Source: Membranipora membranacea
Taxonomy: Eukaryota; Bryozoa; Gymnolaemata; Cheilostomatida; Membraniporidae
Assembly (NCBI GenBank): GCA_914767715.1
Contig: OU612067.1
Location: 23,348,162-23,412,161, forward strand
Reading direction: 5' to 3'
DNA: 64,000 nucleotides
Part shown: in pieces, positions 8,388 to 46,304 of the stretch
Numbering within the stretch: position 1 is the first letter of the stretch
How the letters are laid out: each line of letters opens with the position of its first letter
Made by a program: the position numbers and the translations under genes
The notes under the pieces: model-generated
Databases searched by the model: none
Told to the model about the DNA's origin: nothing
What the model saw: only the letters and a program-made list of their open reading frames with translations

Positions 8388-10413
8388 TTAGCGACGTGGG
8401 TTGAAACCAGGGAACAGATACAGCTTTCTTCCCTTAGTCAAGGTTTTAAATGGTACAGCTGTTTGCCCTGAACAGCTATCAGGATATTTCTCTGCTAACG
8501 ATTTACTTTCTCGGCTTACTCTGTCCTGTACCTGCAATACAAAGTAGTAGCTTGTAGAACTATTGTGAATATAATAATTCACTTTGATGAGCTCTGATTA
8601 TCCATGACTAACGCCTAGTTTGATACCAAGATATTTTCCGGTGTGTCGTGCTAAGTTTGAATAACTTGCCTCTGTAACTTACCAATAACAACAAGAATCA
8701 AAAATGTCTCGCTTAGGCGCTATAAATAGTTAACATTGTCATACTGGAGAGGGGAATTGTCCACACTGCTGATTCGGATTAAATTTAACAGACGTGAGTG
8801 ACCCAAACTAACCGCCTGCTCATGTCATTCATAATATTGATTGGGAAAAAATACCATAATTTATCACATATGATCGTCATCATCAGCAGTAAGCGGAGAC
8901 GATAAGGTAGGTCACGGGTTTTTTTTGTTTTGTTATGTCGTAACTTCCTCTAGCGTCAGAACTAATATCACATATCTTTGGGAAAGAGTGAGCAAGTTAG
9001 TTAGTTAGTTAGAGTCCACTCACAATTTCAAAGAGACTGAAGAGATCTCTGTGACAGGCATGTTTAAGCAGTGTAGTGACAAGGCATCGTATCAGCAGTG
9101 AACCAGTTACTTCATTTCTCATAGACATATAGGCTACAATCATATGCAAACACTGTGTAAATCTAGTTGTATACATTCAAGAGGGAATAAGATGGCAATC
9201 AATGCCGCGATGTTTTAAACGTTAAATATACACTTTAATATATAAAACATGCCCTAAGATTATTCATTGTCGAATAATGTTCTTTGTGGGATTAGTGCCG
9301 TTGACCTTGTCTGCGAGGAATAAGTACTACATTATAATGGCAAAAATGATCTTGACTTCCTGACTCACATTCAAAGCTAGATTTGATCACCATTAGGTCC
9401 TCCGTATTGAGGTGGTCTATTTCTAGTGGTTGACTTCGATGTGATGGTTGCTCTACTTCTGAGGCAGCTGCTTGTATTGGCTTGTATATCTTTGGCTTCC
9501 ATTGATCATCAGTAGTCGACTGTTTTGCGGCACCAGCCTTTCCGAGATCTCTCTCAACTAATGAGCAGTAAATTTAAATATTGTGATGTGTGATGAATAG
9601 ACCAGTCAATTGCATCAAAACCCAATTGAACTTGGAGCTATGTTACCAAAATCAATGGGAAAACAGCCCCGAGTTATATTACTTGCCACAAATAACGACT
9701 TCAGGGTAGGCTCTTTCCGGGGAAATTTCATCTGATATAATATAAATTAACTGGTAATTTTTCCCAATAATATATGGACCAGCATTAATTCAGCACCAGA
9801 TATCATCATTGAAGTCTTGAGCAATTTTACATCCATACCTCCAGAGCAGGCTTGAACAACAATGACCTTGGGTTTGCCAGCCATGTTTGGAAAATTTGAA
9901 GAAGAGAGCAGGCTGTAAATGTCCTTTAGCTTGACGCCAACTTGATCTGAGGCCAGGATAACATCGTCTTCACATCCATGAGTCATCAGACAGAGAAAGA
10001 ACATGCCAAAGTCCTTGTGGTCAGCACGTTTGGTCTCGTCTTGCACTGCTTTGAGCATTTCCTATAAATTGAAACGTTCTGGAGTCACTAGCAAGTAAGT
10101 TAAAAATTTGACAAATCTATTTACCTGAGTCATATTTCATATCATTCGTCTTTTTTTCCATGGCAGCAAGAAACCTTATCAAAGTAGTTCGTTCCATTGC
10201 TTTTTTATCTTGTAAAACTTTACTACTCACCTCTGCAGTCACATCCTCAACGACATCTGCCAGCTCAAAATCGAGAGACTTCAGCATGTACTTCAGATTC
10301 TTCACATCCATGTCTGATCCTTTTCGTCTCATCTGTAGAGCTCCTCTACCATTAAAGTTCTCTATGTTGATTATTAGAGCTCTGGCTCTTCTACTTCTAC
10401 TCATCTTATATAT
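8388..10413 (-). CDS. Caspase domain of the fusion gene (five exons)
   Basis: Exon 10231-10413 holds the start of p20: RALIINIENF and the RRKGSDMDVKNL segment, which includes the Arg that lines the S1 pocket in known caspases. Exon 9839-10061 carries FFLCLMTHGCEDD (catalytic His) and VVQACSG (catalytic Cys; most animal caspases have QACRG or QACQG). Exon 9369-9557 is a polar p20-p10 linker ending in LMVIKSSFE. Exon 9024-9133 gives YMSMRNEVTGS, with the second pocket Arg, and ends LFSLFEI. Exon 8388-8531 gives VQDRVSRES, AVPFKTLTKGRKLYLFPG and the stop. Joins run in phases 0, 1, 1, 0 and all fit. Both catalytic residues and the pocket residues are present, so activity is plausible. Aspartates in the linker could be processing sites, but none is certain. 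Confidence 0.85.
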
Positions 10414-13400
10414 CTGTAAAACAAGGGGGGCAAGAGAGAGATAAGTAGAGATAGTGCACGCTACTGCATAGAGTATAATGTATAAACTATAGATGTGAAA
10501 AATAATAATGTTGTACACCAGGGTCGTAGTTTAGCAACAATGGTATTGGATGTGGAAATCCTTGAGGGTGCGAAGTAAAGGGTATTGTAAGCTCTTAAGG
10601 CTCCAAGGCGTTTTAATGATATAAGTAGCATAGGGATGTCCCAAATAAGCTGATACTGACACGGAATATTCAATTATGGCATTTTAAGGCCACTCCATTC
10701 AGCATTCTAGGGGAGGCGGAGAGCCCCAGCCTCCGCTAGAACTACGGATTCGCACACTCTCAAAGTAACTTGGTTCTACACTAATAACAAATTGTGAAGC
10801 TCATTGAATACTTTTACCAGACTAGTTTTGTTGAACAGTTCCTTTATCTCTGATTTCTCTGTTGGAGCTGGGCGTGGTCTGATCTCATGTAGATGTGTGT
10901 CTTCTGTAGAAGGTGAGAGATAACCTCCACCATCCTCAGATATAACACTGTCTGAGCGTCCTCTGGTCAAAGTTGCCTGCTCTGGTTCATTGTACTCCGT
11001 TGCTAAAACACAGCTTACCTCAGCTTGAGGCTGCAAATCTTCATTCTCTTCTTCACCTGGAAATCAAAATAATTAGACACGTACTGACTTGTTCTAGAAG
11101 AGTGGAAAATTCAGTCTATAAATCTCAGCCATTCCACAGTTAATATCGGGGTATGTGCCTAATCATTCAAGTCATATAAGAAAGTGATGTTGTAACGCTT
11201 ATTGAGGTAAACTCACTAGAGCTGTCCGGCACTGAATTAGTTGACACATATTCCTCAAGCTGTGATATTCCTGTTTCAGTGATGCTAAAACCTGTAAAAA
11301 ATAACAAAAAAAACATACAATTATACAATATTATGCATGTAAAAAAGTAGATTGCGAATTGTAAAACATTCATGTGCAATTTTATAGTAACATTGTCTTT
11401 TAGAAGTAAATTAATTCACTCACAGGGAAATCCGAAGGGTTTTGGGACAACAGATCCAGCCACTTTATCACATCGGCTTGTCTCGTCTCCGGTGTAGGCT
11501 GTGAGGCGAGAATTGAGGCGCTCATAGCTGTAGTGTGATTGGTTGACTTTCTTGAACCATTTGGGATTGACCAGAGTTGTTGGTAACTTTTGTTGAGTCA
11601 GCAGACAGTGAGAGCAGTAGAAGACATGTTCATAACGGACTCCTTTCCACACAGATTCTAGTTCAATTGTGAGCTGCTTCGTTGAATCTAACAGGCTCTT
11701 CCATGCATCACAAATTCTCTTAGCTGGTGTAAGAACTATCAGTGACACCTGTTTCTTGTTCTGGTCATGTAACAGATATCTCATTATTCCATTATCTTCT
11801 TGTACTTGAGCGCCGTTGCTACCTGCTGCAACTGTATTGGCTGGATTGATGTGTATGTCTAGAAACCCTGCAGCAATCAGGTCAAAGATGTACCCAGGTA
11901 CCGACATACCGTTGAGATACAGATCGATTTTCAGTGGAAATAGCTTTGGGCTAGGTTTAGCTGCAGATATGATTTGACTGCTGAAATAAGGAATGATGAA
12001 CTTCATGCTGTCATCTTCTCTCCCTATGGGCCCGCAAATCAGGTGGAATGTTTTCAGAAGTGTTACGCCCACCTCAGCTGGCAGCTCTGATTCAGATTTG
12101 AGCAGATTGTGAAGCAGGGCAGCATCGATGACCCCTGTTGCTTTGAAATCCTCCACCATTTTCACATACTCTCGTTTGTCAACATTTCTGTCATAGAATC
12201 GGTAGGGCACAAAGACCTCAATACGATCATCCCATGTTTGGTCAATCCGATGATCATACAGTGTCCCTATGAGAGAGACAAGAACATCAGGTCGGTGGAA
12301 TATATATTCACACAGCTTGTCATTGTTTTGATACCACATTATTCTGCCTATTTCATGAATGTATTGTAAGATATATCGTTTTCTGCTTTTACGGAAACCT
12401 TTCACAATGTCAGTAACCTTAATGAAAGGCCTGTCTGTCTGCACGGTAAGATCCATAAGTGTCTTATACCAGCTACCTGGTATCTCCGTCATAAGATGAG
12501 AACCGACTTCGCTAAGGGCCTTCTTAAGAGAATAAATAACAGTTTCAGTTGAAGTAGCAGATAACTCCAATACAATATTGATGAGGGACTTAGATTTGTC
12601 ACTGAAACTTGTCATAGAAAAGAACGGGCTTGTAGGGGAACCAGCGCTCTCTTCTGCCTCTATTATCTGGAGGCGCAGTTTTTCTGCTGTTGCAATAAGC
12701 TGCTGCTTTCTGATATTAAGCTGCTCTTCAGTAAGCTTATCAGTATGCGTGAGAACTAGCACTGGTTGACCAAGGTTAGGACGTGCTAAGTAGAAGTGAG
12801 ATATCCATCTCATACAAAGATCTTGTGTTGCAGCATCCTCTCCTTTATCAGTCACCAAACGGTCAAACTCTGCTATATCTATGACAAGAAGCGGGACAGA
12901 CTGAGTTTTAAATGTTAATTGGTGGGCAAAGTGATATACTTTATGCCCACCAAAGTCAATGAAAACCAGTGTAAATTTGTCATCCACTTCCGCTTCACAG
13001 ATATTGAATACTCGAGTTGCTTCATCCAGCTTGGAGTCTGTAGCAGATCGTTTTGTCAGCACCCGCTGGTTTTCCTGAACACTTCTAACCAGGCTTGTTT
13101 TTCCCGCTCCACTTTTGCCGAACACAGTTACTGGGATAAGTTTTACGTTGCTTTCTCGCTTGAACTTTAGATCATCTAGATACTTCTGTAGAGCTGCTCC
13201 ACCCTGTTTAATGACGGCGTAGGGAGGAGATAAAAGTGCCAGGCAGCCTTTATACTCGAAGTATCTAAGTGTTTTGTTGTTAAAGAGTCTCTCAGGTATT
13301 GATTTGAGTTTCTTGTTGTAGCTTACATCCAGATACAATAACTGTTTGAGGTACCCAAGGCTGTAAAAAATAACCATATTTGTTAGCTGTGGTATGAATT

Positions 13401-16400
13401 TTGCTTGTTTTGAGAAAATATTAATGATAAATTGTTAACTATTGTTGATTTAGCAATGGAAGTCTGTCTGTGTTTTGTGGTTTAGAGGTGAGTTGTTTGT
13501 TGGATCTTATATCTAGTGATTGTAAACTGTTCGAGCTTCCCAAGGCTGCCATAATCACCATATGTATAAGCTATGCTTTGTCTTTTGCTTGATCGGAGAA
13601 TATTAATTATTATTGTTGACCTATAAGCCTATAAACCTTTGGTCTAGAAGAATTGCAATAATGAAGAAAATCTTGGACAGATAATTGGCTGGATTGAATT
13701 TTGAATGCTTGGTTATATTCTTTGTGTATTGGGTCAGGATCTCTTCAACGACTCTTTGAGGAAATAACATTTATTATGTTTATTATGTCTATTTCTTTCA
13801 CTAAGACACAAAAATAGTGAAACAATATGGAAAGCAAAATACTGCATTGATGCGGAATAGGTTAGCCTGTTCATAATTAAAAGGCAGATATTGGTTTAAG
13901 CATTTATTTTGATGATGAAAGTGTTTTGATTATCGATGCTTATGATCAATTTTCGAGGGATTGCTATTTGATATTTGTTGTCAGGCTGCTATTTTGATAA
14001 ATTTCAGATCATCGAAAATCCCTAATTCTCGGCCACTTGCATCTAATGAGAAAATATTATTGCATCCGGACAAGACAAATGACTGATCAAACGAATGTTT
14101 TTATCTGGTAACATAAGTCTGTCTATATTTTTGTAGTTAACCGTGGGAAAGAGAATACGTGCTTTTTGAGCTCTTTCTCCCTAACCCATCTTTTGTTGAT
14201 AACTTAAAAAAACTTTAATTGCCGAATCACAATGGAGCAGCCATTCACTATGATCCCATTCGATTTTCCACTTTGAATTAAGTTGACCACTCTCAATTCA
14301 AATGGATTCCTAATACACTCACGATGATAACACTTGCCTGCCCGCCTGGTCGGGCCTCCTGGTTTTTAATTTTTTTTCATGTGTGTTTATTGCTAAAGAT
14401 AAAATTGATAATATATTTAGACAAAGTGAAATTGAGTGAGAGAAAGGCATAAGATTGAATCATCAAACGTAAATAGTTGCAATATAAATACGTAAAAATT
14501 AAAGGAACAGTCTAATAGCCTGCGGCTAGAGTGTAGACCGGCCAACTGTAAATCACAAAGGTAAAATACAAGACACACCGGCGAGGACGCGTAAGACGAG
14601 TGCCCCCACCAGCTGCAGTCACCACTGCCCCCACAGACTGGAAGCTAGGCTCGGCTAGGCTAGGAAGCTAGGTAGAAGTAATTTATTAATTGATCAACTA
14701 AACACTAAACACCTTGAATGCGGCCATTCAACTGACCTACTAATACCAATTTAAGTTAGTACAATTACATTCATGGTTTTTAAAGACAGGCAAATTCATG
14801 AAAATTACCTCATAGGAACATAAATGAATGTGAGTGTCTACAAAAATGAGTATAATCATCCTGTCTGAGAAACTAGTCAAAGTTCTGCAGATCAAAATCT
14901 AGTTTCCCTCAGTCACCTTACATTATTATTTATTTTCACATCACCACAACAACTTATTACTGGAAAATCCATATCATAATAACAATAAAGGATTTTATAA
15001 AGCTATACATACTGCTAATTTGGCGCACGAGTGGACCTACGGGCGTATGCCTAAGGTTAGCCGTGACTGCGTTGGTTAGATCTTTATGTTCCCTGGCCCA
15101 ATATCCCCCCCCCCCCGTCATATCACATAGACGTACTACAGCAAACTCACGAGGAGCAACATCAAGCTTGTCAACACCCCTACCCCAAACCCAGCGTCAA
15201 ACCCCCACTGCCATGCGTCACGATCAGATGCAGAAGATGATAGACAAACTCGATGCTAATAAAGCGTTTATGGAAGAAAGATTCAACAACATCTCCGAAG
15301 ATCTACTAAAGGTGCTGAATATAATTGATACCAGAGAAAGCAGAAAGAAACTGAAGATAAGCAGACCGAGATGGAAAAGTGCCTTAACTACTATGGTGAC
15401 GAGATCATGTCATTGAAAACAGAACTTGCAGCCATTAAAACGGAGAAGATGAAGGAAACGGAGGCAAGTGCGGTGAAGGTAAAACAGGACGACGAGATGC
15501 GGCAGCAAGTGAATAAGCTTCAACAAGATCATAACCTGAAACAATTGAGGATAACGGGAATACCCTTTACAACTGCTGAGAACCTGACACTGCTCATGGA
15601 GAAGCTGGCTGAACTGATGAAGGTCGGCAACTTTGCTAGAAATGATATTGATTTAGTCTACTGCGGAAAAGTGAACACCCTACCACAACCTCCTCCATCT
15701 TCATTCGATTCAAATCGCTAGCTATAAGAGATGAATTCAATGACGGACGTAAGCAGATTGGTCACCACAGCATCACGACTGACAGCCTGGGTATGTCAAC
15801 CAAATCCAAAATATTCATCAATGAGTATTTAAACCCGGCTGAGCAAAAACTCTTCTACCTAGCAAGACAGAATTGCGCTGAACTGTATTACAAGTATACA
15901 TGGACCTACCACAATCAAGTATTCATGCGTAAGAAGAAGTCGTCTGAGCTCATAAGAATTGTTGATGAAACAACGCTAGACAAACTGAAGTAAAAATGAT
16001 ACCACAAACTTAATATTATATTCTTTTAGTCTCTCTTTTTATAACCATAACCAAATGGCCAGTGCACCTGAACTAGAAGAACCATTTTTTGTAGAGCATT
16101 TTGCTAATAATTTACCATGTGAAGTAAATGAAAAGCTAGAAATCAGTGCCAGTCCTTATCAGTACTTCATTTAAACATACGTTGCCTAAGTCAGAAAATG
16201 GGACAGTTTGAATTGTTTGTAGCATCCCTTAATACAAAGTTTTCCTGCATCATTTTATCAGAGACATGGTTCACATGGTGGTACATTTTTACCTCAGTAT
16301 TATATCGATGGTTATAATTTGTTTTCCAATTCCAGATCCAACCGAAATGGAGGTGGCATTGTTATTTATGTGAGTCAGATGTTTGAGGCTAGTGTGACGG

Positions 16401-19400: not shown

Positions 19401-22400
19401 TCTGATTGATATCTCCTAATCTGATAGTGAGTGCAATGGTGGTATTAAGGGATTGAGGCAAATGAACAACAGTTTTTCACAATTATTTATTTATTTTAAT
19501 TGTTTTATGTATGACAATCAGCAGTGTAATAGCCACTTCAATTTCCTTGGATGTATATTCAGTCATTCCATGTTTTGATATTATATTGATAGAGAACAAA
19601 GTGCTTTTAATAAGCAATAATATTTTTAGTATCACCTCAGGACTTCACATTAATCAACCCCTACCCACAGAGTGATGTGATAACTGACTGGATGTGATAT
19701 CACTTACCTAGCTGTAAGCATTGTCACTACTACTACCAAGTAGTTTGAGTAGGCCGTACTTCTAGAGTACACTGTGCAGATGAGCACAGTAGCTAAAAGT
19801 GTGTCAGGTGATGATTATTACATGGTGGTTTAAGGTTTTGCAGGTGAAAATCATGACAGAGCGCGGAAAATGTCTGAAGTTTTATTCACTGCGCAAGGCA
19901 TATTTGTTTCCCCATCACACCAGTCCCTGTATGAACTCATTTACACTTGAGTGTCATGGTGTGTTATATAATCACCAATTGGCTGCACCTATGATATTCA
20001 TGGTCCTAAATTATTAAGTGTGTTGTATGCTCTAGATATTACTTCATCCAGCATGGTCTCTGGATACAGCAGTTACAGTTAGTCTCAGTCAACCATGATT
20101 TCATTTGAGTATCTTGAAATTGCATGTTGATAACATTTTTGTGACAGTCACTGAGATAATGTTAGGTAGTAAAACATATCCAGAGGTAACTATGTAATGA
20201 TTAATGAGTAACACACACAAAAACGAAGAGCACTCATAATTTAATCTGTGTCTTTTGCAACAGCCGGTTGTTTTATCAGGGGTAGATGAGATGTCATGTA
20301 AAAGTATAGAAACGTCACAGGGACTACTGATAATAAGCATTCAGATTGGAAGTGATGACTTTTGGATGTCATAATTCTGACGACAGCTGCATGTGGCGAT
20401 TCCCAACTAAAATAAGGGTTGGTATTTCAGTGTAAATAGTCATTAAACCAAATCATCTTATACAAATTTGATGAAACCATTTTTAAAGCACTGTCCCAAA
20501 ATTTGTTAAAAGTTTTGTATATTTTGTGTTATATAATACCCAAGTGCAAGGTGTTAATACCATAATATTTAGACATTAATTTTGATGATCACACAAAAAA
20601 AGATGGAATGTGTTGTGGATTGAACAAAGCAGTTTTTGTATTCTCTTTGCACATAACCTAGTTAGAGTCAGCCGCTGGATGGATCCTAACGTAACAATAT
20701 TAACGTTAAATGATAAGTCAGCCGCCAGACAGACAAAGTCCTTTATGCCGTAATCTACCTGATTGTTCACCCTACACAAGAAAATGTTACATAAAACTGT
20801 AATTTTATAGTTCAACAAATCGTTTGATCCTTGGGTGCCAGATAGACAAAATCTCTTATTCCGTAACATATTACCTCTTATTTCACCCTCCACAAGAAAA
20901 TATTACATAAAACTTTGATTTTATAGTTCAACAAATAGCTTCATCCTTTTGATCTAAGCCGGTTTCCCGCCATAGAATTATGCTGTTATCGAACCATTAT
21001 GATCTTATCGGACTATTATATATGATTTGTACCTTTTGATCGTGTGTCCACGTAGACCTGGTGTTGTGACCGCTGCCTATATAAATGAGAACTTTGATAT
21101 TCATAAAGAGACGGTTAGTTGAGTTTTAAACTTATAGTTGAGTTTTGACTTATACAATTTTAACTGTGTTTTAACTTTGACTTTTAATAGACATAAAATA
21201 AAGTATCTTAGAGAGTTTTCAATATCTAGACTTATTAATTGTGCAGGTTGAGTTAATGGTAAATTTGGATATCTATTGAGTTAGTGGTAATTATGATATA
21301 AAACAGACAGTGAGTAATTGATATTGATATCTATCCCTTGTCTCTAAAAGGGGCTGCTCTGGTAGCGTCTACAAAAGTAGTCGTCATGGACGGTCACCTT
21401 TGTATCACCATGAGGTAAAACCAACAGAATGTTCACCCTCCTTGCAAACAACTGAATATACAGACAGGAATCCCAAGATACTGCTGAGTTGCCAGCAACA
21501 AGGCACAATAATAATGAATATGATAATATATTTTCTTACAAATAAACAGAGAGAGAAGACGATACAGTTACAGTATATAGTGAGTGATGGTAAGATAGAG
21601 GATATGACTCACCTTTCAGGTAGACTTCTCAAGTCACACCACCGCACAGATATTATCCTAAGTGACCTCATCCCTCCTAATCCTTCAGGTAATGTCTGTA
21701 GGTTCTGATTTTGGCTTATAGCTAACTCCTCCAGTTCAGTCAGTGAGCAAATGCTGTGGGGATAAAATGTAGAATAATAATTATATTAGTTTTCCGACTT
21801 TGATCCTATTACTGCCACTGACTGAGAAGAAATGTAACAAAAATTTTAATCACCGTATTATTAGTGTTTGGTAAAATAATTATATCTCAATTTTGCATAA
21901 CGGTACCACTAAAAAATTAGGTTGAGACTGGTGACAACCTTAATAAGCAAGCTTGAGAGCTTGTTGAAAGTGCAAGACATCAACTCTACCAAAAGAAACA
22001 AGAAGCAGCGGGACCTTTAGGTACACTTAATTACCAGCCCGCAGGCTCTCAGTATCAACAAGCCCAACTTAATCAACAATACACCAGTGGTCAGTTAGCA
22101 AATGGGACATATCAACCATCATGAAATAACAATATCTGACCATACAGATTCAAAATACTACCAATACGTTCTCATGTCTAAATTAAAATATGTTGGGAGT
22201 TATCCTATCACATAAATATAGAAGATAACTGCCTTTTGCGATATGTATCAAAGGTTAATTTGACAAGCAAAGATGCCTCTCTGAGAGAACCCTTGTAATT
22301 TGATTGCTGGTATAATATACATAAAGTACAGATTCAGTTCAGTACAAGATACTCTGTTAGCTATCTGCACCTGTCAGGTATAATTCTTTGTCAACAGGCG

Positions 22401-25400
22401 TTCGATATTCTGCTATATGACTTTGTAGCAGAAACTGACAAATATTGAGTCGTTTTGTTAATAGTGTTTGATGTGTCTAGTGATAGTGATAGTATATTAA
22501 CAAGAAAATATTAATCTATTTAGTTGTTCTTTAAGTTGTGACCAGCAGCTCAAATCACCGGAGTGATTATCCAGGGTTTTTGTCTGATGAGAACACATTC
22601 TGACAATTCTGACATTTAAATCCTAGTATAGAATTTTTGCTGGTTGCAAGGCACTGCGCATGCGGATTGGTGAGTCGCAGCGGGATGTGTGCACTGTGCT
22701 CGCTGTCTACCGGGTGCCCTCGGGCTCTGTGGGGGCTTCTCTGGGGGATTTAGTTCTGATTTTGCCCACTCTCCCCTCGAACTCACATGTTGTTGGTGAC
22801 ATCAATATTGATTTAAATCCAGAAAATTATTTGGACTCAGTTTCAGAAAACTAGAGCGAGTTGATTCAAAGCTAATGTTTTTATAACCTTATTCAATCCC
22901 AACAAGAATTGGCGAAACCAAAATAGTATTTTAGATTACATTATTGTTAAAGATTCAAGTCGTGCACTCTAGATTTTGACATTTCAGATCATAAGCCGGT
23001 GTGTGCATCCTTTGTTTACAAAAAGTGCAGCCATAATTTTAACAAAAATCCTTCGCCAATGAACATAACGAAAGCAAATTATGTGTTATTACAAGAAATT
23101 ATACAGCAACAAAATTGGTCCCCAATTACAAAAATATCTGACACCAACACAGCTTTTAAACTTTTCAATGAAATACTAAGCTCATGTGTTGATGATGCGA
23201 GCAACAAAATTAGTGCCAGAAAGCATCAACGTTCTACTTTCAAGAAACCTTGGATGACTAAGCAATTATTTACACTTACAAAAGAACGTACTAAGCTTCA
23301 CAAAATGAGCAAATTACAACCATTCAATGGTGAATTACAAATGCGGTATAGGAAATTCAGAAATCACGTAACAAACTGCGTAGCAAGGAAAGAGCATTAC
23401 AAAGCTCAGTATGATAAGCGTTGTTGGAATATCAATGAAAAATGGAGATTTGTCATGAGTTTTATTGAAAAAGATACCTATGGTTCAGATGAGAAAATTT
23501 ATCTCGGACATGATGGTGATCAGAGCATTTCCGTAGCTGATAAATTTAATGATTTCTTTATCGATGTTGGTACTAATCTGGCAGAAAACCTTCCAACCAC
23601 TGCAACCAAATTTACAAAATACTTTCCTTAAATTGATAATGCTTTTGCAGCTGAATTTTCATTCACTGAAATTGAGACCGCTGCTACTCTTAAAATAATT
23701 GATAGCTTCTCCAATAAGAAAGCTAAAGGACCTGATAGAATACCAATGCAAGCTTTAAAAGATAATAAATTAACCCTGGCACTACTTTTATCATACTTAG
23801 CCGACCTGATGATAAAACCCTCGATTTTCCCAGACTGCTTAAAAATTGCTCGTGTGAAACCACTTTTTAAAAAGGGAGATAAAACTAGATGTAATAGTTA
23901 CAGACCCATTTCAATTTTAATTTTGACATCGAAAGTTTTAGAAAAACTCCTTTCAATGCAAATCAGAGTGTATCTGGAGTGCAAAACTTTACTAACAAAT
24001 TACCAATTTGGCTTTAGATCAAAGCGCAGTACAACTGACGCAATTAATATTATAATGGAACAGCTTTACAAAAATTTTAATTATAGAGGCATCACCCAGG
24101 GTGTGTTTTTAGATTTCTCAAAAGCTTTTGATACAATAAATCATGGCATTCTCATCAGTAAACTGAATTTTTTTGGATTTTCCTCTCCCTCTTGTCGATT
24201 TTTAGAAAACTATCTTTTAAACAGAAAACAATTTGTCTTGGTTAACAATGTTGAGTCAGGGTTATTGCAAGTCAAGATTGGGGTTCCCCAGGGTTCGGTT
24301 CTCAGGCCACTTTTATTTTTAATTTATATTAACGACCTTTTAAATGCAGCACCTGATCTAAATTATATACTTTTTGCTGATGATACAAACATTTTTAGTA
24401 CTGAACCTGAAGTTATGAAAAGAACTTTACCTTTGATTAATGAATGGTGTATCACCAACCGTCTTGTTATTAACTATGAGAAAACCTTTCAAGATCTTTT
24501 TAAAGCCCCAAACAAAATTTTTAACCCTGAGGAATTCAAGCTCGAATTCGGGAACTCTATTTTAAAAGAAAAAGAAACCACCAAATTTTTAGGACTTGAG
24601 TTAGACTCCAACCTAACTTTCCATGAGCATTTTAAAAGCCTTAAAAGAAATTAAATTTAACTCTGATGATGATGCAAGCACTCCGTCCAGCCATTGACCA
24701 AAAGTCAATGGTTGACATTTACAACTTTTTTTATCCTCATTTGATATACGGATTAGAGTTCTGGGGGCACGCAAGCGATAGCCAACTACGACCAATACAG
24801 ACTCTACATAAAATGCTCTGCGAATCAATAAGGGAATTGGACCAGGGGGTCACATTTCTAGTCATTTTGAAAAACCAACAACAAGCGAGGAGAGAGGTCC
24901 TTGTTGAGCAATGGCATATCCTTGTTCAACAAGTACCTTTTTGGAGTTTGGACGGGGTCAGGGTGCGATCTCACAGTTGGGCAGGCGGGGCGTCTCTGGT
25001 CGTGCGATGGATAGCGGTTACTGTGGGCATGTTTTGTCTGGGCTTTTCATGATGTTCGTGTGGTGTTTTTGTAATTAGTTGGAGGGTTGGCCGTCACTCT
25101 AGTCACAGACTATCTGGCTGACTCATGCTTTTATTTACTTTCTTTGAACATTTATTTCTTATAATTTACAATGTTTCTTTATAGCAAAACACAAAAAAAA
25201 AATTATCCCAATGAACTGCCTGTAGGCCATCAGTCACAATAAACCGAACTAAATCAACAATACACCAGTGGTCAGTAAACAATAAAAACAATGAATAGAA
25301 TCTCCAATCCTGGTGTTTAAAAGATGATTTGTCTTTTAAAAGGCTGCAAAAGACGATAGAGCAAATGAGATGTATCAAACTGGATGGAATAATTATGTTT

Positions 25401-28400
25401 GACCCTGCTGATTTAGAATAATACCGATACAATTTCATTCCTTGATCTTTCCATATTAAAAAATAAGATTACTGCTTGTGGTATTCAATAATTTGCAATG
25501 TGCATCCAAGTTTTATCTGCCAAATGCAATTACATTTGACGTGTTCGTATATGATATAAAATGTACAGAATAAGATCATGTCGATGATACCATGTGATTT
25601 ATCTGCACCTAATAGGTAACGAGGTAATTTCTTTAGACAACAGGCCTGGTGTGAGTTATTCTCTAATAGGTCTTTGTAGCAGAAACTAAAAAAAATATTG
25701 AGATGCTCTGTTTATAGTGTCATCTGATTGTTATCTCCTAATTTGAAAGTGAGTGCAATGGTGGTATTTAGGGATTGAGGCAAATGAACAACAGTTTTTC
25801 ACAATTATTTATTTATTTTAATTGTTTTATGTATGACAATCAGCAGTGTAATAGTCACTTCAATTTTCTTGGATGTATATTCAATCATTCCATGTTTTGA
25901 TATTATATTGATAGAGAACAAAGTGCTTTTAATAAGCAATAATATTTTTAGTATCACCTCAGGACTTGACATTAATCAACCCCTACCCACAGAGTGATGT
26001 GATGACTGACTGGATATGATATCACTTACTTAGCAGTAAGCATTGTCACGACTACTAGCAAGTAGTTTGAGTAGGCCGTACTTCTAGAGTACACTGTGCA
26101 GATGAGCACAGTAGCTAAAAGTGTGTCAGGTGATGATTATTACATGGTGGCTTAAGGCTTGTCAGGTGAAAATCATGACAGAGCGCGGAAAATGTCTGAA
26201 GTTTTATTCACTGCGCGAGGCATATTTGTTTCCCCATCACACCAGTCCCTGTATGAACTCATTTACACTTGAGTGTCATGGTGTGTTATATAATCACTAA
26301 TTGGCTGCACCTATGATATTCATGGTCATAAATTATCAAGTCGCTTTTTTTTTATGTGATATAATTTTGACCAAAGCGTGGTAATTTCTATGATATTACT
26401 TCATCCAGCATGATCTCTGGATACAGCAGTTACAGTGGGTCTCAGTTCAAATCATGTTTTCATCCCACATATTTGGATTACTATGTAATGATAAATGAGC
26501 AACACAAAAAGAGGTCTCATTATTTAATCTGAAGAATTTACATGAGCTGGGAGTATTGTTGGTGAAAGATGAGATGTCAGTAAAAGTACAGAAATGTGAC
26601 AGGGGCTACTGATAACTAGCATTTTGATATGGCAATTATGTCATTTGGATGTCATAATTTTGACAACAGCTTTATTTGGCGATTGCTATCTTAGATAAGG
26701 GAAGATAAATTTCAGTATAAATGGTCATTAAATCAAATCATCTTATAGAATTTGGTGAAACCATTTTTGAAGCACTGTCCCAAAATTTGCTGCAAATTAT
26801 CTATAGTACAATATCATGTAATATATGATACCCAAGTGCAAGGTTTTTATACCAAAATATTTTTTACAAAAATCATTTTTATTACGGTAAAAAAGATAAA
26901 ATGTTCACCTCTTTTGTAAATCATATAAAACAACGGATCATAAGCTTTGCACCGATTGTATATCACAGGCCAATATACATCTAACTGGGTGTCTGTTTTG
27001 AAGGATACGTAATGAACCGTAATGAACCGGCAGACTTCTCAAGTCACACCCGGACACTTGTATATTCCTAGGTGACCTCATCCCTCCCAATCATGTAGGT
27101 AATGCCTGTAGGGTCTCATTATAGCCTAAGTATAACTCCTCCAGTTCGGTCAGTGAGCAAATGCTGAGGGAACAAAAATTTCATCCAATAATTATATATA
27201 GTTTTCCAACTTAGATTTTATTGCTGCCACTGACTGAAAATGAACAACAATGATAATCACAGGATTTCTAATGTTTGGTAAAATAATTTTAAATTGAATT
27301 ATGTCCAATTTTGAATACCAGTACCTCTACGAAAAAGTAGGCTGAGACTTCGGACAACCTTAGTTACCAAGTTTTTGGGGCCTGTTAAGAGTGTGAGGCA
27401 CTTTCTTTAACAAAAGAGACGAGAAGCAAAAGAGACGAAAAGCAAAAGAGACGAGAAGCAAAAGAGACGAGAAGCAAAAGAGACGAGAGGCAGTGACACC
27501 TTAAAGGGGCACCTATCAGCCTATAGGCTCTCAGTATGAACAAACCTAACTAAAACAACAATACACCAGTGGTCAGTAAGCAATACAAACGGTAAATAGA
27601 GAATCTCTTTATCCTGCATTTTAAAAAAACAAATTTTCTGATCAGGATGTAAATGCTTGGCCATGCTGATTATGAATACTACCGATAGGTTCCCATTTCT
27701 AAATTTCAATATGAGGGGAGTTATCTTGTAATATAAATAGAGTAGATAACTGCTTTTTACCATGTGTATCAAAGGTTTTTTTTTACTAGTTCAGTACATG
27801 ATACTCTGTTATCTATCTGCACCTGACAGGTACATATTTTTTGTCAACAGATGTTAGATATTCTGCTATAAGACTTTGTAGAGAAAACTGACAATAATAT
27901 TGAGTTGTTTTGCTTACAGTGTTTGGTGTGTCTTGTAGAATATAAACATTTATTGGCTGCAGTTACGATATTTTTGGTCAAAAATTATGGATTTGTTCGA
28001 TTTTTTGTGTGATGATATTTTCACCCAGTGTGGTATGGTCTATGGTATAACTTCATCTAGCATGGTCTCTGAATACAGCAGTTACAGTTAGTCTCAGTCA
28101 ACCATGATTTTATTTGAGTTTCGTAAAATCACATATTGATAACATTTTTGTGACAGTCACTGAGATATTGTTAGGTAGTAAAACGTTTGAAAAGTTTTTT
28201 TTTCTGATGAGAAAATATTTCTCCTCTAAAAGACCACGCTTCATTGTTTTCTGGCATTAAAATCTTAGTAATGAACTAGTACTGTAACAAAACTATTCAG
28301 GGATTAATCGACGTCCTCTCATCAACACTTTAATAAGCAGACCGGAATCCTAAGATACTGTTAAGTTGCCAGCAACACCCCTAAATGATAGTAATTATGA

Positions 28401-31400
28401 TAATGTATTTTGTTACAAATAAACACAGTGAGAAGTAGATACGGTTACAGTATATGATGCGTGGTGGTAAGAAAGATGATATGACTCACCTCTCGGGTAT
28501 ACATCTCAGGTCACAGTAATTCACATTTATCTTCTTAAGGGACCTCATCCCTCCTAGTCCTTCAGGTAATGTCTGTAGGTTCATATTAACGGATATATCT
28601 AACACCTCCAGTTCAGACAGTGAGCAGATGCTGAGGGAACAAAAGTTTCATTCAATAATTATATATAGTTTTCCGACTTAGAATTTATTACTGCCACTGA
28701 CTGAGAAGAAAATTAAGAACAATGATAATCACGGGATTTCTAATGTTTGGTAAAATAATTTAATATTAAATCATATCCAATTTTGCATACTAGAACCACT
28801 AACAAAAACTAGGTTGAGACTTTGGACAGCCTTGATAAGCAAGCTAGGGGGCCTGTTACAAGTGTGAGGCATCTTCTCTAACAAAAGAGACAAGAAGCAA
28901 AAGAGACGAGAGGCAGTGGCATGTTAAAGGGGCCCTTATCAGCCTGCAGGCTCTCAGTATCAATAAACCTAACTAAAACAGCAATACGACAGTGGTCAGT
29001 AAGCATAACAAACAGTTGATAGAGAATTTCTTATCCTAGTGATTTAAAAATAAGGATTTTTTTATCAGGATGTAAAATTAACTAAGCTTGACCATGCATA
29101 TTCAGAATACTACCGATACGTTCTCATTCCTAAAATTAAATATGTTGGGAGTTATCCTGTCATATAAATAAAGAAGATAACTACCTTTTGCCATGTGTAT
29201 CAAAGGTGAACTTGACACCAAAATATTGCCTTTCTGAGAGAACCCTTGTATTTGTATCATTAGTATAAGATGTATAAAGTACAGATTCAGTTCAGTACAT
29301 GAAACCCTGTTATCCATCTGCACCTGACAGGTACATAATCTTTGTCAACAGGTGTTAGATATTCTGCTATAGGACATTGTAGCGGAAACTGACAAATATT
29401 GAGTTGTTTTGTTCATAACGTTAAAATGTGTTTTGTTAAATGTAAGCACTAATTGGGTGCAGTTAAGTTTTCCTTGGTCCAAAATTCTGGAGTGTCTCAG
29501 TTTTTTTTGTCATGTAATTTTCACCCGGCGGTATGCTCTACGATATTACTTCATCCAGCACAGTCTCTGGATACAGCAGTTACAGTTAGTCTCAGTCAAC
29601 CATGATTTCATTTGAGTATCTTGAAATTGCATGTTGATAACATTTTTGTGACAGTCGCTGAGATATTGTTAGTTAGTAAAACATATGCAGAGGTAACTAT
29701 GTAATGATTAATGAGTAACACACACAAAAACGAAGAGCATTCATTATTTAATCTGTGTCTTTTGCAACAGCAGGTTATTTTATCAGTGATAGATGAGATA
29801 GCATGTAAAAGTACAGAAATGTGACAGGGAATACCGATAACTCGCATTCTGATATGGCAGTGATGACTTTAGAATGTCATCATTCTGACGACAGCTTCAT
29901 GTGGCGATTGCCAACTATAATAAGGGATGATAATACAGTATAAATGGTCATTAAACCAAATTATCTTACACAAATCTAGTGAAACCATTTTTGATGCACT
30001 GTCCCAAAGTTTCTTGCAAGTTTTCTGCCTCATTTCCTCCCTTTAATGACACAACGTCATCGAATCAAGTTTTTGTTCAGGTATTCATTTTCAGCAGCTC
30101 GGCAGCTTTCCAACGGTATATGATATGTCGATATTCGGATTGGTCTTTGATATTACCTTAACAATAATTTTGATAGTCACAGAAGAAAAATATGAAATGT
30201 TCACCCCTTTTTAAAAATAATATAATAAAATAAGGGTTGGTTTTTCACTGTAAATAGTCATTAAACCAAATCATCTTATACAAATTTGATGAAACCATTT
30301 TTAAAGCACTATTCCAAAATTTGTTAAAAATTTTGTATATTATGTGTTATTTAATGCCCAAGTGCAAGGTGTTAATACTATAATATTTAGACATTAATTT
30401 TGATGCTCACACAAAAAAAGATGGAATGTTCACCCTCCTTGCAAACAACTGAATATACAGACGGGTATCCCAAGATACTGTTTAGTTGCCAGCAACAAGG
30501 CACAATAATAATGAATATGATAATATATTTTGTTACAAATAAACACAGAGAAGAGACGATACTGTTACAGTATATGATGAGTGATTGTAAGATAGAGGAT
30601 ATGACTCACCTCCCTGGTAACCTTCTCAGGTCACAGAGAGACACTTTTATATTCTTAAGTGACCTCATCCCTCCTAATCCTTTAGGTAATGTCTGAAGTC
30701 TGGGATTACGGTGTGTATCTAACACCTCCAGTTCAGATTTGATTACTGTCATTGACTGAGAAGAAAATTACCAACAATGATAATCACGGGATTTCTAATG
30801 TTTGGTAAAATAACTTTATATTGACTCATATCCAATTTTGCATACCAGTACCACAAAGAAAAAGTAGGTTGAGACTTTGGAAAACCTTAACTACCAAGTT
30901 AGGAGGCCTGTTAAAAGTGTGAGGCACTTTCTTTAACAAAAGAGACGAGAAGCAAAAGAGACGAGAAGCAAAAGAGATGACAAGAAAAAGAGACGAGAGG
31001 CAGTGACACCTTAAAGGGGCACCTATCAGCCTATAGGCTCTCAGTATGAATAAACCTAGCTAAAACAACAATACACCAGTGGTCAGTAAGCAATACAAAC
31101 GGTAAATAGAGAATTTCTTTATCCTGCATTTTAAAAAACAAATTTTCTGATAAGGTTGTAAATGCTTGGCCGTGCTGATTATGAATACCACCGATAGGTT
31201 CTCATTTCTACATTTCAATATGATGGGAGTTATCTTGTAACATAAATAGAGTAGATAACTGCTTTTTATCATGTGTATCAAAGGTTATTTTTTACTAGTT
31301 CAGTACATCAATGAGCTCCCAAGTGTTTAATAACGCAAACCTCCATGGATGAACAAGTGGTAAATTCACACAGGTAGGGGTAGGGGTTTTGCAGGTATAA

Positions 31401-33247
31401 TTTTTTCCTGCAAAACCAAGATACCTAACTTGACCCTGAAAAACCGTCTTCCCCAAAACTTGCCAAGGTCTCAACAATTTATCGCAATATGTCACAAAAG
31501 CTACATTGTGCGGATCTCTGAGATTGCATTCTATATAGTGATGTTTTAAAGTAGATATTAAAAAATGTATCTCATTAAACAGTCATATTAATATAAATTT
31601 TAGAGAAGATCTCTTTCTCTTTACCTCCTGCATGATAAATAACCGATAAGCTAGACATAATCGAATATGAAAACCTGAAAAGAGGTCACCCAGGGACAGG
31701 ACACATCATATATAACCGGTGCACAATATATACACTCAATATATTTCTATAAATTGGGTGGTGGAAAATGTATAGAAATGCCAGCGCATGGTGAATTATC
31801 ACAATAGCTCAAGGTCGGTTAGCGTAATGGCCACGTATTTAATTTCTTTCTTCTAATCTTCCAGATTCACTTAACTCATGTCTCAGATCTCTAATCGCAA
31901 ATATAACTACTATGTAGTAACCAGGTGTGTCATCTATTTTGAACCCAAATAGCCTGTTATTGCCAAAACTTTACTTCTACACATATTTTGTTTTTCACCA
32001 TAAGACTTTTTCAGGGATGCTTTCTGGTTCCAGAACCCCGATAGTTAGGTTACATCAGGAAATCTGCTCAAGCTTAAAGGGATGATAACTCCAGCGATAT
32101 ATAATTTATTTTGAATGACTGAATTTATATCACCTGACTTTGGCTTTCCAACTTAATAACTGAATAACACATTAAACATTTCTTTGTTCGAAACAAACTT
32201 GCAAATGTCATTGCACCTCAAATATATGGTACCACTAACCGTTCTAACTGATCTGAGTGTGGTGTGTTTCTGAGTTTGAGTTGTTTCAGATGCGGAGCTA
32301 TCTCATGTAGATTAGGAGGGATATTACCTCTGATCATTATTTGTGTGATTTGTATTCTCTGTGATGCCTCTGTCAGCTCTTGTAATGTCATCGACTTTAC
32401 TGACACATAATAGGGAATCCGGTCAGGTTGAGGTTGCCCAGCATGTCTGTACCAGATGCGATAACCTAAAAGGTGATCGAGTAATTACAGAAAACATTTG
32501 AGTTCTGTCTTTACGGTTGTTTTAGTTTTCTGTGCTCACATTTGAACTACAATAAGGACGATCTCGATTTATAGAACATGATTTAGAGGCATAACCACAT
32601 GTATTCCACAGTGAAGTGATCCATATGAGACCCAATACACTTTTTAAGTTCTAAAACACTTCTGTAACAAGTAGATAATCGAGAAGACAATCAATAATCA
32701 CAGAACATTAATATGCATACTACATTTACTTTTACTTTTTACTTTTTACTCCTTACTTTCATTTTCATTGGTATGCTGTAGGCATAGTTGACCTTACAAA
32801 AACAGACACTCAAACACCATATATATTATGTTTCCTGTGCCTTGAATGGATTTCATGAACTGGAGAAGGAACAACAATAATAATTATTCCAGGAGTCAGT
32901 TGTTGATTAAGAAAACAATTTGCACGCTTTACAAGTTTGTAATTTGACTTGACTATGTTTATTATAAACTAGCCTATACTCAGTATCACGCCAAAGGTGA
33001 GATTCTTGGAAAGAGAATCAAGTGTGTATGCCAATAAATCAAGGGTACGAGTTACTTCCTTCACAATCATGTACTCTGCTCTTTCATTTATATCAACACA
33101 GCCGCAAAATTTAGAAAACTGGTTGCTATCAACAGAGGTATTTATAGTTTTATGAGTCTCACCTTGACCTTCTTCCTCAGTGTTTCTCCTCAGCTCACTC
33201 TCCCTAGCACTGTCTGCCCCACTAGGATCCTCATTCTGTGATGTCAT
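8388..33247 (-). CDS. LRR-Roc-COR-caspase fusion protein (ROCO-caspase)
   Basis: Minus-strand gene that I assembled from splice sites and phases. Exons in coding order: 33163-33247 (ATG at 33245-33247), 32240-32465, LRR exons 28490-28630 and 21613-21753, 11424-13360, 11217-11291, 10782-11056, 10231-10413, 9839-10061, 9369-9557, 9024-9133, 8388-8531 (TAA). Lengths total 3729 nt, exactly 1243 codons. The product has a polar N-terminus, LRRs to about residue 235, a Roc GTPase (GKSGAGKTS near 279-287, DFGGH, THTDK), a COR region, an acidic linker and a complete caspase domain from about 961, with His in MTHG (~1049) and Cys in QACSG (~1093). Likely cytoplasmic. ROCO proteins are GTPase switches and caspases are cell-death or inflammatory proteases; coupling the two is inference. 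The weakest join is the GTGTAG donor after 10782. No lesion was seen in the chosen exons. Confidence 0.78.
10782..11291 (-). CDS. Acidic linker between COR and caspase (two exons)
   Basis: Exon 11217-11291 encodes FSITETGISQLEEYVSTN and a Ser-rich end. Exon 10782-11056 encodes an acidic, Ser/Thr-rich stretch and then an amphipathic segment, EIKELFNKTSLVKVFNELH, just before the caspase. I recognise no CARD or death domain. The second exon also has a good in-frame GTAAGC donor about 46 nt after its start, which would give a shorter phase-0 splice form. The frame stays open past it, to a weaker GTGTAG donor, so alternative splicing could set linker length. Confidence 0.6.
11424..13360 (-). CDS. 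Large exon: last LRR, Roc GTPase and COR
   Basis: One 1937-nt exon. It opens with LGYLKQLLYLDVSYN and LKSIPERLFNNKTL, the last LRR, joined in phase to the 141-nt LRR exons. The Roc domain follows: P-loop GKSGAGKTS, G3 DFGGH with the DxxG pattern, and G4-like THTDK in place of NKxD. A COR region of about 400 residues follows, with PGSWYKTLMDL, the usual COR opening, and a Cys-rich patch, FYCSHCLL. MFHAS1 and LRRK proteins share the LRR-Roc-COR order. No kinase follows. The exon ends in a phase-1 GTGAGT donor after FGFP. Confidence 0.88.
13460..13546 (-). pseudogene. Relic duplicate of the last LRR exon start
   Basis: About 190 bp upstream (in gene sense) of the large exon is a diverged copy of its first 70-90 bases, including the acceptor: LGKLEQ, then LDIRSNKQL after a frameshift, against LGYLKQ and LDVSYNKKL. 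Neighbouring intron sequence also matches. It has stops and cannot be used as is. Confidence 0.5.
13547..14999. other. Intron sequence, no recognised element
   Basis: Intron of the ROCO-caspase gene between the LRR array and the Roc-COR exon. AT-rich, with a small GGCTAGGCTAGG-type repeat near 14.65 kb. I found no exon or transposon signature before the LINE begins near 15.0 kb. Confidence 0.5.
15000..18780 (+). mobile_element. Non-LTR retrotransposon (LINE), copy 1, defective
   Basis: Nearly full-length LINE in the ROCO-caspase intron, in opposite orientation. ORF1, about 15212-15993, is broken by frameshifts and encodes a Glu/Lys-rich coiled coil and a basic C-terminus. ORF2 runs from about 16053: an AP-type endonuclease (GDVNIDLNP, then SDHKPV) near 16.3-16.8 kb, then a reverse transcriptase with SYRPISIL, GVLLDFSKAFD, GVPQGSVL and FADDTNIF. 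There are several frameshifts, a TAA just after VPQGSVL where copy 2 has TAT, and a small deletion after the FADD motif. The C-terminal LIYGLEFWG is typical of CR1/Jockey-like elements. Start and end are estimates; a run of 12 C lies at 15105-15116. Not mobile in its present form. Confidence 0.85.
18781..22073. repeat. LRR-exon tandem unit 1
   Basis: First of a family of tandem units in the ROCO-caspase gene. Shared landmarks are AATACACCAGTGGTCAG (18930), a segment with GGATACAGCAGTTACAG (20063), an LRR exon (21613-21753) and GTTTGGTAAAATAATT (21868). The stretch 18.72-20.1 kb is nearly repeated at 25.05-26.4 kb, together with the LINE to its left. Apart from the LRR exon I see nothing coding. 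Confidence 0.75.
21613..21753 (-). CDS. LRR exon (intact), unit 1
   Basis: 141 nt, exactly 47 codons, coding ICSLTELEELAIS, LQTLPEGLGGMRSL and CDLRSLPE: two leucine-rich repeats of the cytoplasmic type. The acceptor is CCCACAG and the donor GTGAGT. It starts after two codon bases and ends with two, so any number of such exons can be added or removed without frame change. It joins in phase to the large Roc-COR exon. Confidence 0.85.
22627..25110 (+). mobile_element. LINE copy 2, 5'-truncated
   Basis: Begins abruptly in the endonuclease domain, at the sequence matching 16.41 kb, and follows copy 1 to its end and beyond into flanking DNA. The reverse transcriptase part (23746-24654) is more complete than in copy 1: GVFLDFSKAFD, GVPQGSVLRPLLFLIYINDL and FADDTNIF are uninterrupted. 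The endonuclease part has frameshifts and a stop near 22853. Shared 3' flanks show that this copy arose by DNA duplication of the region, not by a new insertion. Confidence 0.85.
27028..27163 (-). pseudogene. LRR exon copy, unit 2, broken
   Basis: Matches the intact LRR exons (ICSLTELEELYL, LGGMRS, CDLRSLP) but has an in-frame TGA after LPT and its donor is replaced by a CCGTAATGAA direct repeat near 27008-27028. The acceptor side is preserved. Probably skipped or degraded. Confidence 0.75.
27412..27491. repeat. 16-bp minisatellite, five copies
   Basis: Unit AAAAGAGACGAGAAGC repeated five times with single changes. The same unit occurs twice at 28883-28914 and four times at 30938-31001, once per LRR tandem unit, so copy number varied after the units were duplicated. 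Unit 1 has a single degenerate copy near 21980. Confidence 0.9.
28490..28630 (-). CDS. LRR exon (intact), unit 3
   Basis: 141 nt, same phase as the exon at 21613: ICSLSELEVLDIS, LQTLPEGLGGMRSL and CDLRCIPE. The acceptor is CCTCAG and the donor GTGAGT. It differs from the unit 1 exon mainly at the exposed positions between the leucines, as expected for diversifying repeat faces. The phase fits after exon 32240-32465. Confidence 0.85.
28883..28914. repeat. 16-bp minisatellite, two copies
   Basis: Two copies of AAAAGAGACGAGAAGC-like sequence at the equivalent place in unit 3. Confidence 0.8.
30610..30737 (-). pseudogene. LRR exon copy, unit 4, 5' end deleted
   Basis: Retains SELEVLDTHRNPRLQTLP, LGGMRSLKNI and the GTGAGT donor, with an open frame, but its first bases and acceptor are gone: exon sequence runs straight into what is downstream intron sequence in the other units. 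The deletion joins the two sites near 30737. Confidence 0.75.
30938..31001. repeat. 16-bp minisatellite, four copies
   Basis: Four copies of the AAAAGAGACGAGAAGC unit, the third degenerate, at the equivalent place in unit 4. Confidence 0.85.
32240..32465 (-). CDS. Second coding exon of the ROCO-caspase gene
   Basis: 226 nt. It encodes YRIWYRHAGQPQPDRIPYY, then LQELTEASQRIQ and a first leucine-rich repeat, LHEIAPHLKQLKL. The acceptor is CTTTTAG and the donor GTTAGT. It starts in phase 1, matching exon one, and ends in the phase used by all LRR exons, which ties the LRR array to this N-terminus. Confidence 0.7.
33163..33247 (-). CDS. First coding exon of the ROCO-caspase gene
   Basis: Starts with ATG at 33245-33247 and encodes a 28-residue polar, Glu-rich N-terminus (MTSQNEDPSG...) with no signal peptide, which fits a cytoplasmic protein. 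The donor is GTGAGA, phase 1, joining exon two to form a Gly codon. I chose this start because it is the only ATG in the open stretch and the phase fits. Any 5' UTR exon or promoter further upstream is not recognisable. Confidence 0.6.
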
Positions 33248-46271: not shown

Positions 46272-46304
46272 TAGGGAATGGGACTCAGAAACATAAACTG
46301 TCTG
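46229..46304 (+). promoter_or_regulatory. Programmed -1 frameshift signal: slippery site and pseudoknot
   Basis: GGGAAAC at 46229-46235 reads G GGA AAC in the gag frame, an exact X XXY YYZ slippery heptamer. After a 6-nt spacer, CCCATTCCC (46242-46250) pairs with GGGAATGGG (46274-46282), a 9-bp stem. The loop segment CAGGCAG (46262-46268) can pair with CTGTCTG (46298-46304; one G-U), making an H-type pseudoknot. Pol is in the -1 frame and is open from just after a TGA at 46220-46222, so slipping here gives a continuous Gag-Pol. Confidence 0.85.

Follow-up and report, generated by a model that had tools for sequence, protein, structure and literature searches.

The NLR inflammasome receptors and the CED-4/CED-3 apoptosome combine a sensor, a nucleotide switch and the activation of caspases by proximity, and initiator caspases activate on being brought together. 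The usual view is that the caspases of animals depend on adaptors to reach their sensors. Here we describe a gene on the minus strand of a 64,000-nucleotide stretch of the Membranipora membranacea genome (the window, meaning the whole stretch that was analysed), in which sensor, switch and executioner are apparently united in one chain: leucine-rich repeats (LRRs) and the Roc and COR domains of a ROCO protein are followed by a linker and a complete caspase. The species is a cheilostome bryozoan and not a sponge, as an earlier note made from the letters of this stretch had taken it to be.

ROCO proteins are thought to act as dimers, with an assembly that follows the nucleotide state (PMC6337361, PMC4104024). 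The word "caspase" is absent from the main text of the Roco review PMC6337361. The nearest prior description concerns hybrid genes of amphioxus, termed "LRRs-caspase", that contain a QACXG motif and were listed in 2008 (PMC2575513); "Roc" and "GTPase" are absent from the main text of that paper, and the genes that it lists are probably the LRR-Roc-COR-caspase genes of amphioxus or a related kind. In brown algae, LRR-ROCO proteins are candidate immune receptors that form a large family with phase-2 LRR exons and diversifying selection on LRR sites, and one three-member group carries a C-terminal peptidase domain, IPR009003 (PMC11378527). The main text of that paper does not contain the word "caspase", a check that did not extend to its Figure 2, where about 40 animal ROCO domain combinations are given. 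No description of a bryozoan ROCO-caspase family was found in our literature search, supplements and subscription papers being outside its scope; a paper on the chromosomes of the bryozoan Flustra reports many species-specific duplications, and "caspase" and "LRR" are absent from its main text (PMC13326412).

The predicted gene and its domains

The minus-strand model was rebuilt from the sequence and comprises 12 exons (Table 1), with GT..AG ends at 11 of 11 introns, no internal stop, and exon start phases 0,1,2,2,2,1,1,0,0,1,1,0. The encoded order is N-terminus, LRRs, Roc, COR, linker and complete caspase. The in-phase exons of the earlier note were reproduced together with its count, since its donor at 10782 gives exactly 1243 codons including the stop, but that donor itself is probably to be replaced. 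Three donors of linker exon 2 preserve the reading frame. The one at 10782 adds 12 residues to the linker length seen in relatives from the bryozoan Watersipora subatra and was rejected on homology; the one at 11019 is strong and in phase but skips most of linker 2, and it was retained only as possible alternative splicing. The donor at 10818 (CTG/gtaaaagt) yields LFNKTSL/IYKMS and is preferred because the linker length then equals that of Watersipora proteins P0004 (LFENTNEVYKMS) and P0007 (LYTNKDKVYQMS), while P0006, P0008 and P0009 have one residue less in the stretch before the caspase. On this comparison 10818 is most likely the true donor, and the protein would have 1230 aa.

A further exon upstream of exon 1 is possible, as an AG stands two bases before its ATG. 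The motif GYRIWYRHAGQPQ of exon 2 is common to Watersipora P0004, P0006 and P0034. The N-termini of P0006 and P0034 read MGCSLSRR and MGAKSSK, which we take to resemble lipid-anchor signals, hinting that some members sit at membranes. The counterpart of linker exon 1 in the paralogue L027 is likewise exactly 75 nt long, and a structure model of a Watersipora protein predicts a helix at the matching place. In three array copies with a 3-base intron deletion, which is carried by five of seven copies, the donor of caspase exon A reads AG/GTGAGT. Three additional LRR-like stretches (last rows of Table 1) were rejected as coding exons, being out of phase, stopped or frameshifted; with these omitted, the model is in phase.

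The domain order and the motifs GKSGAGKTS, DFGGH, THTDK, MTHG and QACSG, all named in the earlier note, were recovered with Pfam and with profile comparison. LRR_14 matches at E 2e-14. Roc (PF08477) is found at E 8.2e-7, with 29.7 bits against a cut-off of 27 and the first three motifs in the G1, G3 and G4 positions, and this part also matches the Chlorobium Roco 3dpu in a search of solved structures (E 9.7e-8). COR-A reaches only E 0.0027 and 18 bits, under its cut-off of 35.3; it is also under the cut-off in P0014 and L041, and unlisted for P0006 and P0034 at E 0.01. Because Pfam alone is insufficient for COR, its assignment rests on a profile-profile comparison in which 20 of 21 bryozoan Roc-COR sequences were set against 10 MFHAS1-type sequences of invertebrates: the profiles match with probability 100 and E 3.1e-53 over 558 columns, through the C-terminal CSHC motif, and COR directly follows Roc. 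The window protein has a Roc domain with a COR domain after it, as ROCO proteins do. The Pfam scan of the window protein gave no row for NACHT or NB-ARC up to E 1; a sub-threshold nSTAND1 row (E 0.19) overlaps the Roc P-loop.

Peptidase_C14 (PF00656) matches at E 4.4e-39 over positions 2-216 of 233, with both subunits and the catalytic His and Cys, across caspase exons A-E. The 3' part of the protein matches caspases and CED-3 among solved structures; a VIA-align fold comparison covered caspase rows and not Roc-COR. MTHG and QACSG are both present. The S1 pocket of caspases is made of arginines and of the Gln of QAC. In the window protein, the Q of QACSG and the R of RRKGSD align to caspase residues at strong E-values, whereas for the R of SMRN, alignment to SWRN is limited to a weak second stretch (i-Evalue 12) and to a Branchiostoma caspase alignment; on these alignments the pocket residues appear to be in place, and the SWRN tryptophan is M.

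Relatives, family and selection

Of 8000 candidates scored against a Roc-COR-linker-caspase query, 30 proteins reached E <=1e-5. They include six from Watersipora subatra, which align over 86-100% of that query with an identity of 26-32%, and one from Bugula neritina that is labelled for Roc, COR-A and caspase. With a Watersipora caspase-region query, 14 matches were obtained (query included), all from Watersipora subatra, a species with public gene models of LRR-Roc-COR-caspase order. In Branchiostoma, 13 of 26 matches (query included) have this order, 12 of the 13 with a Pfam Roc label and all 13 with COR-B and caspase. The idea that no animal protein has a full caspase after COR is not supported, given these gene models; the companion claim of the earlier note, that the window has such a caspase within one gene, agrees with the Pfam match and with the relatives and paralogues of the same order.

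Six close paralogues (L021-L026) and the window gene retain the full set of eight 3' exons, uninterrupted by any internal stop, which argues that the exon model is not due to chance. In L027 the phases of linker 1 and of the caspase exons are as in the window gene, though caspase exon B is only 49% identical. In L036 the linker and the large subunit lie in a single exon with no methionine ahead of the first caspase strand, so that its caspase needs an upstream exon. Locus L041 (C3:14231400-14234700) has a single open frame of 842 codons that encodes LRRs and Roc together with incomplete COR and caspase regions, a pattern repeated in three sister copies; these four look like internal deletions and therefore serve as support only.

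The genome searched has 339,339,785 bases in 18 contigs, and the window lies on C3 (chromosome 3). Roc-COR exon queries gave 68 matches (best 68 of 245 candidates) and 71 matches (best 71 of 245), and their union contains at least 77 Roc-COR loci: 55 on C3, 19 on C5, 2 on C11 and 1 on C1. They were compared with 145 PF00656 matches (best 140 of 515 candidates) and with those 87 of 150 type C-like caspase matches (best 150 of 267) that lie on the same contigs. A same-strand caspase match stands -5 to 3141 bp downstream of 76 of the 77 listed Roc-COR loci, and for these 76 none was found upstream or on the opposite strand within 5 kb; in the remaining locus, L033, the caspase was found by direct reading. 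Typed subsets of the caspase lists gave the same pairs as the full lists. Moreover, the caspase follows COR in the window gene, itself a member of an 11-copy tandem array, and in all 20 loci read individually. The fusion is not unique to the window gene but belongs to a large family of similar loci.

Further clusters of caspase matches, with no listed Roc-COR nearby, are present on C1 (33-37 Mb), C5 (29.6-29.9 Mb), C8, C9 (0.2-2.5 Mb) and C10 (22-24 Mb). L001 (C4:18270899-18271708) is a single-frame caspase match whose cysteine region, by eye, apparently reads FFDSSTG, and it is perhaps catalytically dead.

Three types of caspase were distinguished: type A with QACSG (window gene and L021-L026), type B with QACAG (L027-L033) and the diverged type C with MSHG and QACQ (L034-L040). 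In L036, two joined exons of type C match the Pfam caspase over 17-232 of 233 (E 1.9e-10), and HG and QAC are retained in all three types among the loci read. The array copies L027-L030 have a Roc-COR 90-91% identical to that of the window gene and a caspase exon B identical at 49%; this exon shares 82% identity with its counterpart in L031, a locus of the C5 array whose Roc-COR reaches only 57% identity. Between the type A and L027-L030 groups the synonymous rate dS is 0.01 in mid-COR and climbs to 0.68 near the exon end. The simplest reading is that the caspase half was exchanged by recombination near the end of COR.

The ratio of nonsynonymous to synonymous substitution (dN/dS) was obtained by NG86 as mean dN over mean dS across pairs, and the values are rough because the pairs are not independent. 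In seven type A copies it is 0.44 for the last LRRs with Roc-COR and 0.21 for the caspase. When the Roc-COR exon of 11 copies is split, it is 1.12 at the LRR end, 0.92 in the next 34 codons, 0.21 in Roc and 0.22-0.27 in COR. By these ratios, purifying selection acts on Roc, on COR and on the caspase. Exposed LRR positions were defined by the LxxLxLxxN consensus, a set fixed after the variation in L036 and L037 was known; a narrower choice, partly post hoc, gave larger ratios and was left unused. At the exposed positions of the window array the pooled dN/dS is 2.80, versus 0.58 in the remainder of these LRRs (10 distinct copies, entropy p 1.1e-5), and in L036, whose six tandem LRR units are laid out like the window LRR exons, it is 1.72 versus 0.25 (p 2.2e-5, 5 distinct). 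In two of the three LRR sets the pattern is that of a binding face that changes while the scaffold stays fixed; uniform diversification across sets was rejected on the third, L037. Arrays of similar units are spaced apart in L036 (L036:277-2279), and lie within one very long open frame in L037 (L037:722-5623), L038 and L039.

A candidate one-chain receptor-protease

We propose, with a probability of about 0.6, that the gene encodes a one-chain intracellular receptor-protease whose caspase is switched on by sensing through the LRRs and by dimerisation of Roc-COR, in immunity or in self/non-self recognition. The earlier suggestion of an LRR-sensing, GTP-switched protease in one chain thus survives as the best reading of the sequence. 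The short N-terminal motif and the variable LRR solenoid would bind a ligand or a product of a partner cell. Binding would free Roc-COR, and its nucleotide cycle would lead to dimerisation or to an altered dimer, as in known ROCO proteins; the two C-terminal caspase domains could then be brought together and activate by proximity like CED-3, caspase-8 and caspase-9. They would first cut their own linkers and then cellular targets, whose cleavage would most likely trigger cell death as part of an immune or self/non-self response. We infer that the gene is transcribed as a single mRNA and that its product is controlled by GTP, dimerises and acts as a protease, and likewise the ligand, the cell death and the immune role; hypervariable LRRs and family size point to the recognition of changing targets, and so to immunity or colony recognition. 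The larger point, which lay beyond the view of the earlier note, is the family of at least 77 loci with diversifying LRR surfaces and exchanged caspase halves. More tentatively, and at slightly less than even odds, these one-chain LRR/Roc-COR/caspase receptors, with caspase halves swapped near the COR-linker border, may be the bryozoan counterpart of NLR inflammasomes, serving innate immunity or the self/non-self recognition of colony fusion.

Several observations weigh against the one-chain proposal. The COR-linker and linker-caspase splices of the window gene are based on sequence and homology, and the linker 2 donor of L027 is tentative. In Watersipora P0010, P0011 and P0013 the alignment spans 62-65% of the query and a caspase label is missing, and the L041 frame, probably a deletion derivative, is without part of COR, the linkers and the caspase start. 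The linker has a dN/dS of 0.94 in the seven type A copies, on very few changes, and the L037 repeats show 1.09 at exposed positions versus 1.06 elsewhere (p 0.13, 26 distinct), which is not significant. In addition, of the 145 PF00656 matches, 120 have no listed Roc-COR nearby, so that most caspase matches of this genome belong to other genes or to unexamined ones; the same holds for the position of 98 of 150 type C-like matches, and of such matches some may be without Roc-COR and others at Roc-COR loci beyond those listed. The immune role is suggested by pattern alone.

It is very improbable that the window holds two adjoining genes, of which a ROCO gene would end in the linker and a caspase gene would begin at an ATG within IYKMS, the pair being kept together by repeated tandem duplication. 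An in-frame ATG does stand in caspase exon A just before the first strand, tandem duplication copies neighbours together, and the three Watersipora ROCO models just mentioned would suit this arrangement; against it are the contiguous Watersipora models with a conserved linker, the phases conserved across diverged paralogues, the linker-large subunit exon of L036, and the amphioxus models with the same order. A real fusion whose caspase half has little protease activity and serves, as cFLIP does, as a scaffold or regulator is unlikely: it would account for the M in place of the SWRN tryptophan and for the strong divergence of the type C copies, but not for the catalytic His and Cys, kept with HG and QAC in all three types in the loci read, nor for the caspase dN/dS in the seven array copies. 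To the same degree we doubt that the family serves development or tissue turnover, such as polypide regression, its LRR variation reflecting other partners. Bryozoans undergo regular tissue regression, the immune role is read here from sequence pattern and not from expression or infection, and the variation in L037 is not significant; the ratios at exposed positions of the window array, however, exceed those of the rest of the same LRRs to an extent for which relaxed constraint alone is insufficient, and tandem expansion on a large scale is a typical mark of recognition genes. The one-chain receptor-protease is preferred.

Table 1. Exons of the LRR-Roc-COR-caspase gene and LRR-like remnants, in window positions
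Feature	Position	Strand	Basis
Exon 1: start codon and N-terminus, 28 codons plus one base	33163..33247	-	splice model
Exon 2: N-terminal motif GYRIWYRHAGQPQ and start of LRR region	32240..32465	-	splice model, Watersipora comparison
LRR exon, 141 nt, phase 2-2	28490..28630	-	splice model
LRR exon, 141 nt, phase 2-2	21613..21753	-	splice model
Exon with last LRRs, Roc (GKSGAGKTS, DFGGH, THTDK) and COR	11424..13360	-	Pfam, profile comparison
Linker exon 1, 75 nt, phase 1-1, conserved motif ITETGISQLEEYVS	11217..11291	-	splice model, paralogues
Linker exon 2, donor 10818 favoured over 10782 of the earlier note	10818..11056	-	homology
Caspase exon A: IYKMS start, RRKGSD	10231..10413	-	splice model, structure matches
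Caspase exon B: catalytic His (MTHG) and Cys (QACSG)	9839..10061	-	splice model, structure matches
Caspase exon C: inter-subunit linker, small subunit start	9369..9557	-	splice model, paralogues
Caspase exon D: small subunit (YMSMRNEVTGS)	9024..9133	-	splice model, structure matches, paralogues
Caspase exon E: C-terminus LYLFPGFNPRR, stop	8388..8531	-	splice model, paralogues
LRR pseudo-exon, out of phase	30609..30737	-	frame check
LRR pseudo-exon, in-frame stop	27028..27165	-	frame check
Weak LRR-like remnant just upstream of Roc-COR exon	13475..13546	-	tblastn E 0.15

The gene is flanked on the plus strand by CUB-domain exons at 2306-2647 and 4339-4680 (Pfam E 2.1e-9 and 4.2e-9), with a third near 60900 seen by eye. 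Two related copies of a non-LTR (long terminal repeat) retroelement, at about 14900-18750 and 22570-25080 (+), lie antisense in its introns, and a Ty3/Gypsy-like retroelement has a long open frame at 46223-50947 (+) with protease, reverse transcriptase, RNase H and integrase.

Origin of the fusion and comparison with known systems

In an unrooted caspase tree of 38 chosen rows, from which type C was omitted because of its long branch, the 17 bryozoan rows lie on one side of a branch with 100/100 support; a single clade of bryozoan and amphioxus ROCO-caspases is not rejected on the caspase (p-AU, the p value of the approximately unbiased test, 0.237). In an unrooted Roc-COR tree of 43 chosen rows, the 21 bryozoan rows, four of which (P0001, P0003, P0005 and P0012) are Roc-COR pieces with the caspase part unseen, also lie on one side (100/100), amphioxus caspase-bearing ROCOs intermix with amphioxus ROCOs without a caspase label, and a single clade of caspase-bearing ROCOs is rejected (p-AU 5e-6). 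Two separate fusions, in bryozoans and in amphioxus, are likelier on these trees, repeated caspase loss in amphioxus being possible instead. By Pfam labels, other sensor-caspase fusions (RIG-I-like helicase-caspase, LRRC8-type LRR-caspase and ankyrin-caspase) are found among P0050 and P0051 (Lingula anatina), P0060 (Paramuricea clavata) and P0052 (Haliotis).

If our reading is true, the window family would be a compact model for GTP-controlled caspase activation. It makes testable whether Roc-COR can switch a covalently attached caspase, and which genes underlie bryozoan immunity and colony recognition. NLR receptors and the apoptosome use a STAND ATPase and a separate caspase reached via CARD, PYD or an adaptor, whereas the window gene has Roc-COR and a fused caspase. 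The Watersipora proteins, uncharacterised or named as MFHAS1 homologs, have the same architecture, linker included, and some have the N-terminal motif; they differ from the window family in forming separate copies in the trees. The amphioxus proteins, annotated as MFHAS1 homolog or SHOC-2, share the domain order, with the caspase after COR, and are present in several copies, but their Roc-COR groups with amphioxus ROCOs without a caspase label. Human MFHAS1 and LRRK1/2 share the LRR-Roc-COR core, the COR of the window gene being of MFHAS1 type by comparison with invertebrate sequences; they are without caspase, and the LRRKs end in a kinase and other domains (PMC6337361, in part from general knowledge). 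The brown-algal LRR-ROCOs resemble the window gene in their separate phase-2 LRR exons, in selection on LRR sites and in family size, but their LRR exons have 72 bp with one LRR and those of the window 141 bp with two, and their main groups have no effector where the window gene has its caspase (PMC11378527). Two probably independent origins, together with an LRR diversification like that of the brown-algal ROCOs, suggest a recurrent evolution of NLR-like receptors from ROCO proteins.
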